From Bacteroidales bacterium (lineage in GTDB: Bacteria > Bacteroidota > Bacteroidia > Bacteroidales > UBA932): a stretch of 45,323 nucleotides of DNA. The translations under genes were made by a program, and so were the position numbers. The notes beneath the pieces were generated by a model. That model ran no database searches and was not told where the DNA came from. It worked only from the letters and a program-made list of their open reading frames with translations. The stretch covers positions 1 to 45,323 of the forward strand of contig JAGBAO010000016.1 of the NCBI GenBank assembly GCA_017938925.1, read 5' to 3'. Below, one piece after another: positions 16,054 to 44,862 of this stretch; within the stretch, counting starts at the first letter, position 1, and each line of letters starts with the position of its first letter.

Positions 16054-16926
16054 ATGGAAGAATTGTTGCAGAAAGAGTCGGGTGCTCCTCTCGCTGAAGA
16101 TCAAAGTGGAACAGGCGAAATAGTCGTCTATCAGCCTGATGATATTACAAGGCTGGAGGTGAGAGTATTGAATGACAGTGTATGGCTAAATCGTGCGCAA
16201 ATGGCATCGCTTTTTGGAAGAGATGTCAAGACAATAGGTAAGCATATAGCCAATGCTCTGAGAGAAGAGTTGAGAAGTGTTTCAACTGTCGCAAATTTTG
16301 CGACAGTTCAGAGGGAGGGCTCCAGAATGGTGGAACGGCAGATGGAATACTATAATCTGGATATGGTTCTTTCAGTTGGGTATCGTGTTAAATCTGAAAG
16401 GGGAATACTATTCCGTCGTTGGGCAAATGAACTCCTTAAAGGATATTTATTCAGAGGTTATTCTCTTCCTGATAGGGTATGTCGAATCGAAAGACGGCTT
16501 GATGAACAAGAGAAGAAAATCGATTTCTTTGTGCGCACATCACTTCCTCCCGTTGAAGGGATTTTCTATGACGGACAGATCTTTGATGCATATGTCTTTG
16601 TTGCCGACTTGATCCGCTCTGCCAGACAGAGTATTGTGCTGATAGATAATTATATAGATGATAGTGTTCTGATAATGCTTTCTAAACGCACGACAGGTGT
16701 ATCTGCAGAGATACGCACTTGTCGTCTGCCACAGACATTGCTTCTGGATGTGCAGAAGCACAATGCCCAGTATGCACCGATAACCCTTAAGCAGGTTAAA
16801 AATATCCATGATCGTTTCCTGATTGTTGATGATACTGTGTACCATATAGGTGCCTCCCTCAAGGACCTTGGCAGAAAATTGTTCGCTTTCTCTAAAATGT
16901 CCATCCCTGTGCAGTGTTTATTCTGA
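16054..16926 (+). CDS. RhuM/virulence-protein-family DNA-binding protein with PLD-like C-terminus
   Basis: A 290-residue accessory protein. The N-terminal half carries the RhuM family signature: a winged-helix-like segment with QMASLFGRDVKTIGKHI, then YYNLDMVLSVGYRVKSERG and FRRWANELLKGYL. The C-terminal half resembles a phospholipase D-like domain with one HxR variant of the HKD motif (His252, Arg254, Asp259 in IHDRFLIVDD), followed by GASLKDLGRKLFAFSKM. Homologues normally continue past that point; this one ends after about seven unrelated residues, so the 3' end may be truncated. The gene is visibly more AT-rich than its neighbours, suggesting transfer. Such proteins are scattered near mobile elements and defence loci; biochemical role unknown. 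Confidence 0.75.
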   Translation: MEELLQKESGAPLAEDQSGTGEIVVYQPDDITRLEVRVLNDSVWLNRAQMASLFGRDVKTIGKHIANALREELRSVSTVANFATVQREGSRMVERQMEYYNLDMVLSVGYRVKSERGILFRRWANELLKGYLFRGYSLPDRVCRIERRLDEQEKKIDFFVRTSLPPVEGIFYDGQIFDAYVFVADLIRSARQSIVLIDNYIDDSVLIMLSKRTTGVSAEIRTCRLPQTLLLDVQKHNAQYAPITLKQVKNIHDRFLIVDDTVYHIGASLKDLGRKLFAFSKMSIPVQCLF

Positions 16927-38410: not shown

Positions 38411-39526
38411 ATGGGAAAAGTGATATTGACAGGTGACCGTCCGACCGGAAAGCTCCATCTCGGACATTATGTGGGATCGCTCAAGAGAAGGGTGGAACTT
38501 CAGAATTCAGGAGAGTTCGAGAAGATCTTCATCATGATTGCAGACGCCCAGGCCCTTACGGACAACGCCGACAATCCGGAGAAGATCCGTCAGAACATCA
38601 TAGAGGTCGCCCTGGACTATCTTGCAGCGGGGCTTGATCCTGAAAAGGTGACCATCTTCATCCAGTCACAGGTTCCGGAGCTATGCGAGCTTGCATTCTA
38701 TTATATGAATCTCGTGACAGTCCAGCGTCTTCAGCGCAACCCGACCGTCAAGCAGGAGATCCAGCTCAGAGGGTTCTGCGATGGGGATGATGATGATAAC
38801 CAGAACAAGAAGGGAACCCCTGTAGGTTTCTTCACCTATCCTATCAGTCAGGCATCAGACATCACTGCCTTCAAGGCGACTACGGTTCCAGTAGGCGTGG
38901 ACCAGGCTCCGATGATCGAGCAGACCCGTGAGATTGTCCATAAATTCAATTCCGTTTATGGAGAGACGCTGGTCACCCCTGAGATGATGCTTCCTGAGAA
39001 CGCCACCTGCTGCCGTCTTCCGGGCACTGATGGAAAGGCGAAGATGAGCAAGTCGCTCGGAAACTGCATCTATCTTTCAGACAGTTCGAAGGAGATCAAG
39101 AAGAAGGTCAACAGCATGTACACCGACCCTGAGCATCTTCAGATCACTGATCCGGGTCATGTGGAAGGAAATGTGGTCTTCACCTATCTCGACGCATTCT
39201 GCACCGACGAGCATTTCGCAAAGTTCCTTCCGGAATATGAAAATCTCGACCAGATGAAGGACCACTATCGCCGGGGCGGACTCGGAGACGGCACCTGCAA
39301 GAAGTTCCTCTTCAACATCATGGAGGATTTCCTCCAGCCTATGAGGGAGCGCAGGGCCGAGTATGAGAGAAATATCCCGCATGTGTATGACATCCTGCGC
39401 AAGGGTTCCGAAACTGCTCGCGAAGAGGCTGCAAAAACCCTCGCCCAGGTGCGCAAGGCTATGAAGATCGACTATTTTGACGATGCAGAACTCATTGCCG
39501 AGCACACTGCAAGATACAAGGCGTAA
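38411..39526 (+). CDS. trpS: Tryptophanyl-tRNA synthetase
   Basis: A 371-residue class I synthetase that charges tRNA-Trp. The HIGH-type motif is in GKLHLGHY (His16-His19), and the KMSKS motif is exact at 211-215 (AKMSKSLGN). Trp-binding elements are TGDRPTG and GVDQAPMIEQTRE. An acidic insert near residue 118-128 (GDDDDNQNKKG) lengthens it beyond the usual 330; this longer form occurs in several phyla. The stop is four bases from the convergent STAND NTPase stop. Confidence 0.95.
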   Translation: MGKVILTGDRPTGKLHLGHYVGSLKRRVELQNSGEFEKIFIMIADAQALTDNADNPEKIRQNIIEVALDYLAAGLDPEKVTIFIQSQVPELCELAFYYMNLVTVQRLQRNPTVKQEIQLRGFCDGDDDDNQNKKGTPVGFFTYPISQASDITAFKATTVPVGVDQAPMIEQTREIVHKFNSVYGETLVTPEMMLPENATCCRLPGTDGKAKMSKSLGNCIYLSDSSKEIKKKVNSMYTDPEHLQITDPGHVEGNVVFTYLDAFCTDEHFAKFLPEYENLDQMKDHYRRGGLGDGTCKKFLFNIMEDFLQPMRERRAEYERNIPHVYDILRKGSETAREEAAKTLAQVRKAMKIDYFDDAELIAEHTARYKA

Positions 39527-39530
39527 ATAT

Positions 39531-42500
39531 CTATAGATTCACTTTGAAGAGGTGCTTGAAAAGTACTCTGACGACCTTGTCAAACCATTCGTAGCTGTCC
39601 TTTGACTCCGGTGCGAGGCACATGGCTTCGTAGGCGAACTCATCGACTGCCTCCTCGTGTATCAGCGACCAGATAAGGAAGTTTCCGAACTTATGCGTAA
39701 ACAGGTCTGATAGTCTTTCTCCTCCCGGGTTGTAGCTCAGGAGTTCGTCCTTATATTTAGGAATTCCAGGGAACGGAAGGCCTGAAAGGTCTTTCTTAAG
39801 GAAGGCGTTCACCTCGTCCGGGAAATAGTTCTTGGCGGTTCCGAGCACCTTTCCTATCAGAGTCACTATATCCTCGCTGAATTCGTCAAGTATCTGCTGA
39901 CTGTCAATCCTGCAGATTACATCGAGCAGAAGGTCCAGGGCTGTGTGGATGTACCCGGAGTCCGTGACAAGTTCGGATATGTTGTCGATCAGATGCACAA
40001 GCAGCTGGGTGTCACGCCCTTCCACTGCTTGCTGCAGAAGTCTTCTGAAGAGCGGGGCATTGGCCGAATGCGGGTCTCTTGCGTCTCCGTGACGGCAAGC
40101 CCATACCATTGCATACCATGTCATCACGTTCCTCTTGTACAGCTGGCGCGGATTGGCCTTGTGGCTGTTCCTTCCCTTGAAATATCCCTTGCATCTGAGG
40201 GTCCAGTCCTCGCACCACTGCGAGAGCATCTCCCATGCGTATTCAGGGAATGTGTCCATCTTGAGTCCCAGCTGGTAGAGTACATAGATCAGTGACATCT
40301 GGGAGTAGTCGAACCACTCTGTGTCATCTATGCCGCCTTCCCTGAAGTTCTTCAGAACAGGATACACGTCGTCCCAAGAGCAGATTCCCATGATGATCAG
40401 GATCCTCTCAAGAGCGAAGTATGTGAAGCTGTCGCCGGAGCGGTAGGCTGATATAACCTTGTCCTGGAAAGGCCTGAAATCTGGAGCCTCCTCCCTCGGA
40501 GCCGGCGCATCTGCCGCAAAGTAGCGCGAGTGCTGGAAGATGAAGCTCATCGCTGTCTTGAGGTCCTCCCTGCACCATGAGCCGTCCCGGCTTGTAAGCG
40601 GAATCACGGAGTCTTCCCAGAATGACTGGTATTCGATGACATTGTTCACATAGTCCGACTGGAAGGTGATCTGCTTCCTGAGGACCATCTGGAAGAACGG
40701 CAGCAGGATCCTGATGAGTGAGTAGTTGAGGGTGATGTGCCTGAAGACTTCTATCGTCTCTCCAAGCATTCCCGCAACCCTGGACCTGTCATTATCGTCT
40801 CCGGATATCAGTGCATCGATGATCAGCAGCACGTTGAGCCTTGTGCCGATCTCCAGGTCGCTCATGATGGCTTTCCTCCTTCGCTCGCCGAAAGGCATGG
40901 CCAGAAGAGGAGTTGAGCATATTTCCCTGTACATCCTGTTGACGATCTGCTCCGAAAGGTTCTCCTTGAGAGGGGTTCCGCTGAGAGTGCATTTCTTCTT
41001 TGAAACGTAGTATGCATACATGCACACGTCGTTCTTCACTTCTGTCACAGGGTCCAGCATCAGCTTCCACAGCAGATTGAACGGATCCTGCGAGTATATC
41101 TTCTCATTGTGGTAGTCGGTGAGCATGATACCGTTGAGCAGAGTCACCGATGCCAGCGAACGCTGCCTGATGAGCGGCGAGATGACCATGGAAAGTTCCT
41201 TGTGTCTTGCGATGGTGACATCGTCAGCCTTATTGGCTTCAATGGTCCTGGTCACGGCGTTATATTCAGGAATGACTGCCCTGCAGTCCTCTCCGGTCCT
41301 TTCTATGAGCTCTCCCAGAAGTGAGAATATCTCGGTCTCGTAGTTCTCCCTCACCATGACGTTCATCACGTCCGTTGCCAGTGACATGATCTCGAACCCG
41401 CTTTCCTCAAGGCTGGAGAGTGCGATGACCGTGTCCGGCTTTCCTGTGGCCAGATAGTCCATTATGAGCACGTTGCGCATTGCCCCCATGAAGACTTCAT
41501 TGGCGCTGGCCTGTCCTATGGTGGATGTGAATGTCTCGGCGCTGATGTTCTCTCCCGTTCTTGAGTTCCTTTCGAAGAAGAGCAGAGCCAGCATATATTC
41601 CAGGAATCTTTCGTAGATGAAGAGGATCTTTTCGTTATCGACAAGCCTGAGGACTGGTCTCTCCGGCTTGTTGAGCAGTTCCGCGAATGCCACGCTGTAT
41701 CCGTCTTTCTTGAAGATCAGGACAGCGGCCTTGTGCAGAGGAGAGTCCGGGTTGTCATGAGCGGCCTGAAGGTCGGTCATGGTTATGGAATCTGTCGCGT
41801 TTCCGCACAGGTATGAGTCGAGGATATGCCCGGCGATTTCTCGTATGATCTCCACTTGCCTGTGTCCGGCATATGAAACGGATATGTCCTGAACCATCTT
41901 GTGGAAGAGGGCAAGCGAGGTGAATTCCCTCATGGCCTGAGGAAAGTCCTGGCCGAGGTAGTTCGTGCAGGCCATCTTCAGCACCAGCGGGTCCTTCATC
42001 CTGATGGTGACTCCTCTTGGCAGGAGGTCGAACGGTGTCTTCATCTGGAAGAGGTCACCGTAGATATGATAGGCCTTCCTCACCTCCATGTCTGTGAATC
42101 CCTTGACTGCCGTGTTCTCTTCCTCGCCGGAATTATAGAACAGTGACTGGTCCTGTCTTGCCGCTTCCGGCATGATAAGGTTCTTCCATGTGTAGTTGCG
42201 GCAGGTAAAGAGAATCTTGAACTGTCCGTATCCCGGTTCGATGAATGTCTTGTAAAGATCCCTGTACAGCATCAGAGGACCTTCGGTGTCACTGGTGAGC
42301 CCCGGGTATTCTATACATTCGTTGATTGCGTCAATGAGTATGAGCACCTTCCTGTTCCTGGACCTTGCCGCATTTGCCAGTGACTGCACCAGACCGGCGA
42401 CGGGTTTGTGCATGGACCACCCGAAGGTGCTTTTGAGTCTGTTCTCCAGCGTGATGTCCGCAAATTCGGAGCCGGAGAATATCATCACTCCCTCGTCAGA

Positions 42501-43574
42501 TTCCGGGAATGTCTCTGTCCAGTAGCATAGCTGGGTGGTCTTTCCCTGACCGGCTTCTCCCAGAAGAGGGAAGATTACTGAACCAGACTCAAGGAAACCC
42601 TTCAGTTCCGTTGTCAGGCTTTCCCTTTCCACGAAAAGTTCCCGGTTGTACTTCTTCTCGGCATAGATCCTGGTCAGGAATGAGGAGGTGTTTCCGTTCA
42701 GCAATGCGCTCCATTGTTCCCAGTTGAGGGTCCTGCTGATGTCGAAGGACGGCAGGAGCTCCTGCATCCAGGCATCAAATTCATCATTCAGACTGTCTGT
42801 CGTCTGTGAAAGGGCCTCTTCGTTGGATGATATGTACGCCACCAGCTCGTCCTTGAGGGTCTGGAATACATAGATATGTCCTTTTCCGTTGCAGTGTATC
42901 AGAGGGTAGAGGTCTATGTGACGGCTGCCTTCACATATATAATAATGTCCTTCCTTCAGAGTCTCGTCCTGCCCGTCCGGTTTCGGACTGTGTCCGTTCA
43001 GCAGCAGCGTCTCTCCGCCTGGCATTGCGGTCTTGAACTGCATTCTTCCCAAAGGCATGAGGGCCTGGACGAATTCCAGGAAACGGTCATGGATGCCTGC
43101 GGCGACCTCCCTGTATATCTCCTGTGAGAGTGTGGTTCCGTGTCCTTTGTAGTCGTTCCTGATCTTTACGATGCTCTGTTCGCCCTTTCTCCCCAGGATT
43201 AAATGCTTCTTAGGCGATATGACCTTGGACAGGGACTGCACGAATTCGTTGTCCGGCAATGAGACCGCAGCCAGGCCGGCGAGCGGGGTCAGTATGTCAT
43301 TCGCCCAGTCTCCGAAGGACAGTGGGCGCTTGTTGTCTATCTTTCCTATTGCCTTGACCACTGAAGGATGGTCTCTGAATTCCCCGCCTTCGGCCTTCAG
43401 CAGGCCCAGAAGGACTATCGAAAGGAACTGGCATGATGTCTCGAAGAAGTCGAGCATATAGTTCATGGCTCCCGACCAGTTTCCCTTTTCCGCTTCGCAG
43501 ATGTATCCCTGCATCGGATGGGCAAGGGAATAGGGCAGGGAGTTGGTGCCTTCGGCAAGGATTTCAGTCCTCAT
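39531..43574 (-). CDS. STAND/NACHT-type NTPase with HEPN-like N-terminus and helical repeats
   Basis: A 1347-residue cytosolic protein. Residues ~15-175 are a helical domain with R139-N-x4-H145 (IRNDYKGHG), the R-x4-6-H form of HEPN RNases. Residues ~185-270 are a strand-rich domain (HYYICEGSRHIDLYPLIHC). The NTPase core has the Walker A GEAGQGKTT (Lys345), Walker B LILIDAINE (Asp415, Glu419) and a sensor arginine in TCRNYTW (Arg459). From ~560 to the end it is helical solenoid, probably the sensing part. This order, effector-NTPase-sensor, is that of antiphage STAND proteins (Avs, bacterial NACHT), though other STAND regulators exist. It is divergent from a two-helix membrane protein gene. 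Base composition is like its neighbours, so transfer is not recent. Confidence 0.7.
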   Translation of the reverse strand: MRTEILAEGTNSLPYSLAHPMQGYICEAEKGNWSGAMNYMLDFFETSCQFLSIVLLGLLKAEGGEFRDHPSVVKAIGKIDNKRPLSFGDWANDILTPLAGLAAVSLPDNEFVQSLSKVISPKKHLILGRKGEQSIVKIRNDYKGHGTTLSQEIYREVAAGIHDRFLEFVQALMPLGRMQFKTAMPGGETLLLNGHSPKPDGQDETLKEGHYYICEGSRHIDLYPLIHCNGKGHIYVFQTLKDELVAYISSNEEALSQTTDSLNDEFDAWMQELLPSFDISRTLNWEQWSALLNGNTSSFLTRIYAEKKYNRELFVERESLTTELKGFLESGSVIFPLLGEAGQGKTTQLCYWTETFPESDEGVMIFSGSEFADITLENRLKSTFGWSMHKPVAGLVQSLANAARSRNRKVLILIDAINECIEYPGLTSDTEGPLMLYRDLYKTFIEPGYGQFKILFTCRNYTWKNLIMPEAARQDQSLFYNSGEEENTAVKGFTDMEVRKAYHIYGDLFQMKTPFDLLPRGVTIRMKDPLVLKMACTNYLGQDFPQAMREFTSLALFHKMVQDISVSYAGHRQVEIIREIAGHILDSYLCGNATDSITMTDLQAAHDNPDSPLHKAAVLIFKKDGYSVAFAELLNKPERPVLRLVDNEKILFIYERFLEYMLALLFFERNSRTGENISAETFTSTIGQASANEVFMGAMRNVLIMDYLATGKPDTVIALSSLEESGFEIMSLATDVMNVMVRENYETEIFSLLGELIERTGEDCRAVIPEYNAVTRTIEANKADDVTIARHKELSMVISPLIRQRSLASVTLLNGIMLTDYHNEKIYSQDPFNLLWKLMLDPVTEVKNDVCMYAYYVSKKKCTLSGTPLKENLSEQIVNRMYREICSTPLLAMPFGERRRKAIMSDLEIGTRLNVLLIIDALISGDDNDRSRVAGMLGETIEVFRHITLNYSLIRILLPFFQMVLRKQITFQSDYVNNVIEYQSFWEDSVIPLTSRDGSWCREDLKTAMSFIFQHSRYFAADAPAPREEAPDFRPFQDKVISAYRSGDSFTYFALERILIIMGICSWDDVYPVLKNFREGGIDDTEWFDYSQMSLIYVLYQLGLKMDTFPEYAWEMLSQWCEDWTLRCKGYFKGRNSHKANPRQLYKRNVMTWYAMVWACRHGDARDPHSANAPLFRRLLQQAVEGRDTQLLVHLIDNISELVTDSGYIHTALDLLLDVICRIDSQQILDEFSEDIVTLIGKVLGTAKNYFPDEVNAFLKKDLSGLPFPGIPKYKDELLSYNPGGERLSDLFTHKFGNFLIWSLIHEEAVDEFAYEAMCLAPESKDSYEWFDKVVRVLFKHLFKVNL

Positions 43575-43599
43575 AATGAATGTTTTATGTTATGATAAG

Positions 43600-43607
43600 C
43601 AAATTTA
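43600..43607 (-). promoter_or_regulatory. -7 box for the STAND NTPase
   Basis: TAAATTTG on the minus strand, 25 bases before the NTPase ATG. It faces a matching plus-strand box 11 bases away. Confidence 0.45.
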
Positions 43608-43618
43608 TAAATAATAAT

Positions 43619-43626
43619 TAAATTTG
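43619..43626 (+). promoter_or_regulatory. -7 box for the two-helix membrane protein
   Basis: TAAATTTG, 15 bases before the ATG at 43642, implying a leader of under ten bases. The promoters of the two genes overlap. Confidence 0.45.
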
Positions 43627-43641
43627 TGAAAATTTACGCAG

Positions 43642-44862
43642 ATGCAGTATAGAGACATTGCTTTCCTTTGCGGATATTTCTCCGTGAAGAATGGAAATCC
43701 GAACGATATATTCGCCTCTCAGGGAGGCTTCTGGACCAGGGTGGAATATCAGGGAGAGGAACTGGCGTGGGCCAGGGATTTCTATTATCCTGAGTTTGCC
43801 GAATTCATGATGTGCGAGGTTTCTGCCTATTCCCATTCGTGTGACAGCGAAATCCCGCTCAAGCTCAGGGATGGCAGGGAGCATAAGGTGCATCTGGATG
43901 AGTTATGTGCCTATGTCTTCCCGTTCGGAATAGTGATCATTACCGTAAAGGTCAGTCAGCAGGCCGAGAGGATTCAGGATATCCTTGATGCGCTCTTCAT
44001 GATGCGCGGCATATGTTCGGCGGATAAGTCATTGATGCCGGAATATGTGTCGTCAGTTCTTGATCCGCTCTCTGTTCTGAATCACGCGGCCGGCAATCCG
44101 CTTGACTACAGGTATCTGATGGAGTGCGGAAACAAGTTCAGGATATTCCACATGATCCTGTGTGGGGACAGACCAGCCGATGAGACCGCTTTCGATGCCC
44201 TTCTGTATGGAGGAGGTACCCTGCTGGAGTACAAGGACGACGATCCGAAGGGATTCTCACGGCAGTATTATGAGAACATCATGTCCGGAAGCCGGGTGTC
44301 GGTGTTCAACAACTGGAAGGCTTTGTCGCTGCTGGATACGTTCACTATCGTCGCCCATGGCGTGCAGAAGGAGATGCTGAATCTGTGGTGCAGCGAGTAT
44401 TTCGGCAAGCTGTATCTTTATGCTCTCTACAGGAAATTCTTCCTGTTCCGCATCTACGGCGACTTCCGTTCGGGAGCCAAGGAAATCTCCAAAGTGCGCA
44501 AGGATCTTACTCGGTTCGAGAATGACCATACCTTCCCGAAGGTATCATACAACTTCCTTCCGGAGACTCTGATGGATGCAATGGAAAAGGGGCTCGACGT
44601 GCAGACTGAGACCGTCAAGGTGGCAGAGATGATCGAACGCGAGAATGCCCGCAGGGAGGCCGAGACCGGCGACAAGATGAATCTTTTCCTGGGAGTGATC
44701 ACCTGTCTGACCCTCTTCTCCGCAATATGGGATTTCGCCTGCCTGATGGATGGCGCATTCGAATTCAGTACAAACATCGGTACAGCTACCGGAATAAGGG
44801 CCTGCGCTATGCTCCTGATATCCGTCATCTGCATATCAGCCTTCTTCGTCAGGAGAAAGTAA
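43642..44862 (+). CDS. Uncharacterised protein with C-terminal two-helix membrane anchor
   Basis: A 406-residue protein with no signal peptide. A soluble part of about 340 residues begins with YRDIAFLCGYFSVKNGNP and contains AYVFPFGIVIITVKVS, a strand that starts a helical stretch (ERIQDILDALFMMRG). A long helical region at about 270-340 leads to two membrane helices at ~346-369 and ~385-403, ending in FFVRRK. The layout (soluble domain, long helix, two membrane helices) is like CorA-type or pore-forming effectors, but the CorA GMN motif is absent and I do not recognise the family. It shares a 67-base divergent promoter region with the STAND NTPase, so co-function is likely. A terminator follows directly. 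Confidence 0.65.
   Translation: MQYRDIAFLCGYFSVKNGNPNDIFASQGGFWTRVEYQGEELAWARDFYYPEFAEFMMCEVSAYSHSCDSEIPLKLRDGREHKVHLDELCAYVFPFGIVIITVKVSQQAERIQDILDALFMMRGICSADKSLMPEYVSSVLDPLSVLNHAAGNPLDYRYLMECGNKFRIFHMILCGDRPADETAFDALLYGGGTLLEYKDDDPKGFSRQYYENIMSGSRVSVFNNWKALSLLDTFTIVAHGVQKEMLNLWCSEYFGKLYLYALYRKFFLFRIYGDFRSGAKEISKVRKDLTRFENDHTFPKVSYNFLPETLMDAMEKGLDVQTETVKVAEMIERENARREAETGDKMNLFLGVITCLTLFSAIWDFACLMDGAFEFSTNIGTATGIRACAMLLISVICISAFFVRRK

Follow-up and report, generated by a model that had tools for sequence, protein, structure and literature searches.

The available portions of the literature describe the parts of the locus studied here in separate settings. Proteins in which a HEPN domain is joined to a STAND NTPase are known from bacteria (Anantharaman et al., 2013; PMC3710099), and in type III-B CRISPR systems a CorA-family membrane protein adjoins the gene for a phosphodiesterase; immunity in B. 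fragilis depends on both, SAM-AMP being broken down by the phosphodiesterase (PMC10600005), and the CorA of some type III systems is associated with or fused to a Csm6-2 effector (PMC11229360). The need of CorA for the phosphodiesterase is stated as an open point (PMC10600005; PMC12255297). We have analysed a stretch of 45,323 nucleotides from a Bacteroidales bacterium (GCA_017938925.1, contig JAGBAO010000016.1, positions 1 to 45,323), referred to below as the window, in which a HEPN-STAND protein, P1, and a CorA-like membrane protein, P2, are divergently encoded, and whose relatives carry a third gene for a GDPD phosphodiesterase. HEPN-STAND receptor, CorA-like effector and phosphodiesterase, known separately, appear from their sequences to be joined here in one unit; no paper on a cassette of STAND, CorA-like and GDPD genes was found in the open-access literature, as represented by the beginnings of abstracts. 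We propose, with a probability of about one half, that this is a rare immune-type cassette of the abortive-infection kind with ribonuclease and pore outputs.

The differences from described systems are as follows. The HEPN-STAND proteins of Anantharaman et al. have no linked CorA or GDPD gene in the available text of PMC3710099, in which the strings 'cora' and 'glycerophosph' occur 0 times. The type III-B CRISPR locus has a Cas10 complex in place of the STAND protein and NrN or DEDD in place of GDPD, and P2 is without GMN. P1 resembles the Avs2 (AVAST) proteins in having an N-terminal region, a STAND NTPase and a large C-terminal half, and Avs2 models hit its NTPase region (best E 8.6e-8 with PADLOC and 3e-7 with NCBIfam), but it differs in its HEPN-like N-terminus and in its linked CorA-like and GDPD genes; membership of Avs2 was rejected, the NCBIfam match covering residues 336-553 only and scoring 28.7 bits where 1000 are demanded. 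DS-8, from DefensePredictor (PMC13092281), likewise brings a NACHT protein together with phosphodiesterase-type chemistry, but its metallophosphatase lies inside the NACHT protein, and the available text of that paper contains neither 'cora' nor 'gdpd'.

Components of the cassette

The original prediction was of a two-gene immunity module, made up of a STAND NTPase and a two-helix membrane protein. When the coordinates were re-derived, both open reading frames and the 67-base divergent gap between them were recovered, and the following features were assigned to P1 and the gap.

39531..43574, minus strand: P1 open reading frame, 1347 amino acids, HEPN-STAND protein
43041..43574, minus strand: all-helical HEPN-like domain, predicted ribonuclease (P1 residues 1-178; model pLDDT 87.6, pTM 0.81)
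43140..43160, minus strand: R139-N140-x4-H145, HEPN-type Rx4-6H motif, in 26/26 aligned homologues
42789..43040, minus strand: small beta domain (P1 residues 179-262; model)
41955..42575, minus strand: STAND NTPase core (P1 residues 334-540)
42537-42560, minus strand: Walker A, GEAGQGKT (P1 residues 339-346)
42318-42344, minus strand: Walker B, LIDAINE, in the STAND core
39534..41477, minus strand: presumed sensor half (P1 residues 700-1347; conserved in the alignment, role inferred)
43575..43641, no strand: divergent promoter region common to P1 and P2, 67 bases

A pattern scan of an 84,980-species genome collection gave 23 contig loci with relatives of P1, and P1 and P2 are conserved proteins, not chance frames. 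Together with genomes G086, G021, G381, G287 and G484 these make up the 28 other loci to which the counts below refer. Records of one locus were merged (L003, from G065, with L007; L006 and L045 with L004, from G086), L001, L002, L034 and L038 are the window itself, and L035, L036, L037, L039, L040 and L046-L048, which are repeats or GDPD matches only, were excluded. The alignments A1, A2 and A3 hold 22, 23 and 18 rows; A2 omits L007, L022, L026 and L027 (one duplicate and three partial), and the count of 26 rows includes L059-L061 in addition.

P1 has the Walker A motif, the Walker B motif with its trailing acidic residue and the sensor arginine R459 of STAND NTPases, and G344, K345, T346, D415, N418, E419 and R459 are unchanged in all 26 aligned homologues. 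Since the score with the Pfam NACHT model PF05729 was 16.1 bits against a cut-off of 26.7, we call P1 STAND-class by its motifs and not NACHT. The N-terminal domain, overlooked by the original prediction, is predicted to be a HEPN ribonuclease. HEPN proteins are metal-independent RNases. An Rx4-6H motif with a polar residue behind the arginine is a hallmark of their domains (PMC3710099), and R139, the polar residue N140 behind it and H145 occur in the same 26 homologues; structure comparison of the confident N-terminal model matched HEPN proteins with modest Z. The best match in a PDB sequence search with P1 had an E of only 0.046, of the P1 and P2 profiles searched against the PDB one gave no match and the other three chance-like matches (best E 0.027), and neither a Pfam scan of the P1 N-terminal region nor a PHROGs search returned anything informative.

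P2 shows the CorA-MIT layout, namely an N domain, a long stalk helix running into the first transmembrane helix (TM1), a short loop and a second transmembrane helix (TM2).

43642..44862, plus strand: P2 open reading frame, 406 amino acids, CorA-like membrane protein
44599..44760, plus strand: long stalk helix continuing into TM1 (P2 residues 320-373; model, hydropathy)
44782..44856, plus strand: TM2 (P2 residues 381-405; model, hydropathy)

Hydropathy placed the terminal hydrophobic segments at about residues 347-370 and 379-406, in agreement with the model and with the earlier description of a protein ending in two membrane helices; residues 87-106 also exceeded the threshold, and there the model draws a strand. 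PADLOC CorA models matched 15 of the 22 P2 members at E <= 0.01 (best 2.5e-6), the match of the window's own P2 being restricted to its C-terminal part, and a scan of the window's genome with the PADLOC CorA profiles gave no match at 1e-5. Seven proteins from the order are hit by the PADLOC CorA profile, and in a single hhalign comparison P2 could be aligned to them over its length (probability 51%, E 2.3e-5); three unrelated controls gave probabilities of 0.0-0.1%. A GMN motif after TM1 is defining for the CorA-MIT transporters. It was present in five of those seven CorA-profile proteins and absent from P2 (0/22 members and 0/6 further relatives), and no CorA family was among the Pfam matches of the 22 members (E <= 0.01). 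We therefore call P2 CorA-like only. This nature had not been noticed before. P2 could open a membrane pore. P2 had been put forward as a second effector or a regulator; because P1 has its own predicted HEPN effector, it is as a second output, and one of CorA-like type, that we retain it.

The third gene was also missed at first. A GDPD gene lies 3' of P1 in 27/27 other loci with that side visible (23/23 contig loci, G086, G381, G287 and G021), so that the supposed two-gene module becomes a three-gene cassette; in G021 the first part of the gene is visible before the contig ends, and the contig of G484 ends before that side. The open reading frames of P1 and GDPD often overlap or nearly touch, with 70 bases between them in L024. 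The catalytic set of GDPD enzymes consists of H, E, D, H, E and K. These residues (H6, E34, D36, H49, E107 and K109) are present in 18/18 aligned proteins, and the one protein tested against Pfam PF03009, from L007, scored 122.7 bits (cut-off 23.6). At least 30 residues precede the catalytic start in 11 of the 18, several of these leaders having hydrophobic stretches or a lipobox (in four cases, as judged with a simple pattern). Such leaders suggest export; the GDPDs nearest to the window, from L003 and L008, are without such a leader. At L057 (12-4045) there is a further GDPD of the cassette type, which shares 60% identity with the L004 protein; its gene lies 3' of a fimbrillin-like gene and an unknown gene, in a genome in which no P1 was found.

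No GDPD gene lies beside P1 in the window. Comparison by blastn with L007 and L008, whose P1 proteins are 82 and 84% identical to that of the window, together with gene order, placed the absence at one junction.

39509..39537, no strand: junction lacking GDPD and two more genes that relatives have here (2.49 kb)

In L007 and L008 this stretch, which lies between the stop of P1 and trpS, encodes GDPD, a protein of 100 aa and one of the Pfam Cons_hypoth698 family. In the window's genome, which is about 92% complete, all GDPDs are distant, with a best match of 1.9e-23; the genus genomes with P1 reach 1e-100 or better. The genome seems to have lost its GDPD gene; a misassembly of the draft could also account for the gap.

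Occurrence, linkage and transfer

P1 is rare, being found in 4/101 genomes of the genus and 4/393 of the order, the window's own counted in both. This argues against a core gene of the genus, an alternative raised with the original prediction and now rejected. The pairing of P1 with P2 in other genomes, which that prediction had proposed to examine, was confirmed: P2 is close to P1 in 24/28 other loci, elsewhere in the genome in one, not found in one and open in two. It lies beside P1 or just past GDPD in 20 of the 23 contig loci, is near P1 in G086, G381 and G287, and in L026 is on the contig that holds the other end of P1. In the genome of L023 it lies on a separate contig, where the surrounding 14 kb contain neither P1 nor GDPD, and in that of L009 no P2 was found. 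The contig of G021 is too short to show P2, and in G484 there is none in about 8 kb upstream, the other side being cut. Seventeen of the close pairs are divergent, four have the order P1-GDPD-P2, two have P2 upstream on the same strand and one has it downstream on the other strand; because the arrangements differ, the linkage is not merely a frozen gene order. No two of the 28 loci shared near-identical DNA, taken as at least 97% over 800 bases. Pairwise distances were correlated at 0.96 for P1-P2 (20 loci), 0.97 for P1-GDPD (15) and 0.93 for P2-GDPD (15), with shuffled maxima of 0.37-0.56; shared descent alone can be sufficient for such values.

A selfish cassette of toxin-antitoxin type, in which P2 or GDPD would hold back the HEPN toxin, agrees with this patchy occurrence and with the frequency of HEPN domains among toxins (PMC3710099). 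However, the P1 open reading frame persists without P2 in the genome of L009 and without GDPD in the window, so that neither partner alone looks like an essential antitoxin, and we regard this explanation as very unlikely.

P2 is found with a second type of partner. Of 295 genomes of the order, seven have P2 relatives, three with P1 and four without, and in 4/4 loci without P1 (L053, L054, L055 and L056) a TPR-SpoIIE phosphatase-type protein, identified by Pfam in three loci and by similarity in the fourth, is encoded just upstream, and the gene downstream codes for a protein of about 200 aa. The unit lies at 6006-9833 in L054, for example, and in L055 the TPR-SpoIIE protein and P2 are fused (1043 aa). 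The CorA-like protein is thus tied to at least two unrelated inputs, P1 in some loci and TPR-SpoIIE in others, which suggests that CorA-like effectors may serve as a plug-in output of unrelated sensors.

The same observation bears on a signalling system, in which the CorA-like channel would be opened by a small ligand that activated P1 makes or releases, for example a product of HEPN cleavage or a conjugate of a nucleotide. GDPD would destroy this ligand, as NrN does SAM-AMP in the type III CRISPR system of B. fragilis. Besides the very different input of these P2 relatives, the joint requirement for CorA and phosphodiesterase in B. fragilis and the Csm6-2 associations cited above speak for such a system, as does the alignment of P2 with the seven order proteins, whose link to CorA is their profile match. 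Against it, profile scans recognised no cyclase or other signal-making domain in P1, and the GDPD leaders hint at export away from a cytosolic signal; for these two reasons we keep it as a case of lower probability, and think it distinctly unlikely. Less probable again is its most specific form, in which an NLR-like STAND receptor acts through a diffusible ligand on a CorA-family channel and GDPD sets the lifetime of the signal, so that the output of type III CRISPR would be placed on a CRISPR-independent sensor and, in other Bacteroidales, on TPR-SpoIIE.

When 23 loci (L004, L007 and L009-L029) were compared, P1, GDPD and P2 recurred and the flanks were mostly different, the widest non-cassette flank cluster spanning six loci and the rest 2-4. 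At the window's own site, the sister genomes G038 and G026, in which P1 was not found, have a TetR-like open reading frame (by eye) between Dabb and the gene that follows; L007 and L008 carry the three-gene cassette there. The P1 proteins of one genus share 82, 52 and 45% identity with that of the window, and those of other lineages up to 53%, which speaks for transfer. Taken together, these patterns suggest that the cassette is gained and lost as a unit, and it is probably shared horizontally among gut Bacteroidales. Carriage by phages, plasmids or viruses was rejected, as P1 had no match in phages, plasmids or viral contigs and P2 none in viral contigs, within collections that are limited.

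This last result and the genes around the cassette in the window, which look housekeeping-like by eye, speak for an envelope or lipid stress module, in which P1 would sense membrane damage, P2 move ions and GDPD recycle glycerophosphodiesters without any role in phage defence. GDPD belongs to an ordinary lipid-related enzyme family, here often with a hydrophobic leader. Rarity in genus and order, divergence of P1 within the genus and the HEPN motif are unlike a housekeeping response, and we consider the stress module unlikely.

A possible immune role

In the immune-type cassette that we prefer, the C-terminal half of P1 would detect something made in infection, the NTPase would by analogy oligomerise after sensing and the HEPN domain is predicted to cleave RNA. 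P2, probably oligomeric, would provide the second output and disrupt the barrier that the membrane forms. An accessory role would fall to the phosphodiesterase GDPD, which in most versions is perhaps located at the envelope and would limit or support the membrane effect. Phage as the trigger, cell arrest as the outcome and the order of events are what we infer for this scheme. Phage defence would be the most likely job of the cassette, judged from its parts, its rarity and its transfer; what the sequences themselves show are the gene families or resemblances, the linkage of the genes, their motifs, the scattered occurrence and, in the window, the missing GDPD.

Three observations weigh against this interpretation. 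Structural matches are weak, and for the P1 N-terminus rows 3, 4, 6 and 8 of the first 14 in the VIA list are other helical proteins. The GDPD subfamily of the cassette also occurs in G031 and G090, in which no P1 was found. Finally, the pair lies between trpS and a Dabb gene, and the other genes of the window look housekeeping-like by eye, in line with the original prediction, which placed the pair outside any obvious defence island, though the PADLOC candidates PDC-S05 (best 1.5e-118), PDC-S23 and mad3 each match one of 31 scanned proteins, figures that are among the matches listed, for 25 of 31 families.

If our proposal holds, the cassette would be a simpler system in which to ask why the CRISPR-associated CorA needs a phosphodiesterase, and the window would offer a naturally occurring phosphodiesterase deletion.

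Promoter region and neighbouring genes

Two matches to TAnnTTTG, which we take to be the Bacteroides promoter consensus, lie in the gap between P1 and P2.

43619-43626, plus strand: TAnnTTTG box
43600-43607, minus strand: TAnnTTTG box

One box points at each gene, the distances to the start codons being 15 and 25 bases, and boxes at matching positions were found in the gaps of L007 and L008. Elsewhere in the window, ten larger proteins are not the PDC-S05 match, and one of the ten matches IetA at 7.4e-11; the protein at 16054-16923, presumably RhuM-like as judged by eye, may be the PDC-S05 match.

Further genes adjoin the cassette in single loci or pairs of loci. The protein of about 200 aa, P5, was rejected as a further part: among the loci compared, only L059 and L060 have it near P1, its other occurrences being in the four TPR-SpoIIE-P2 loci. 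A gene for a protein kinase-AAA ATPase lies directly upstream of P1 on the same strand in L020 (3904-5943) and L025 (3931-5946), and a PP2C phosphatase gene beside P2 in L016 (409-1083); neither is general enough to count as a cassette part, and the latter is a hint of phospho-control of the CorA-like protein. In L020 a second GDPD-like copy lies past P2 (12100-12870).
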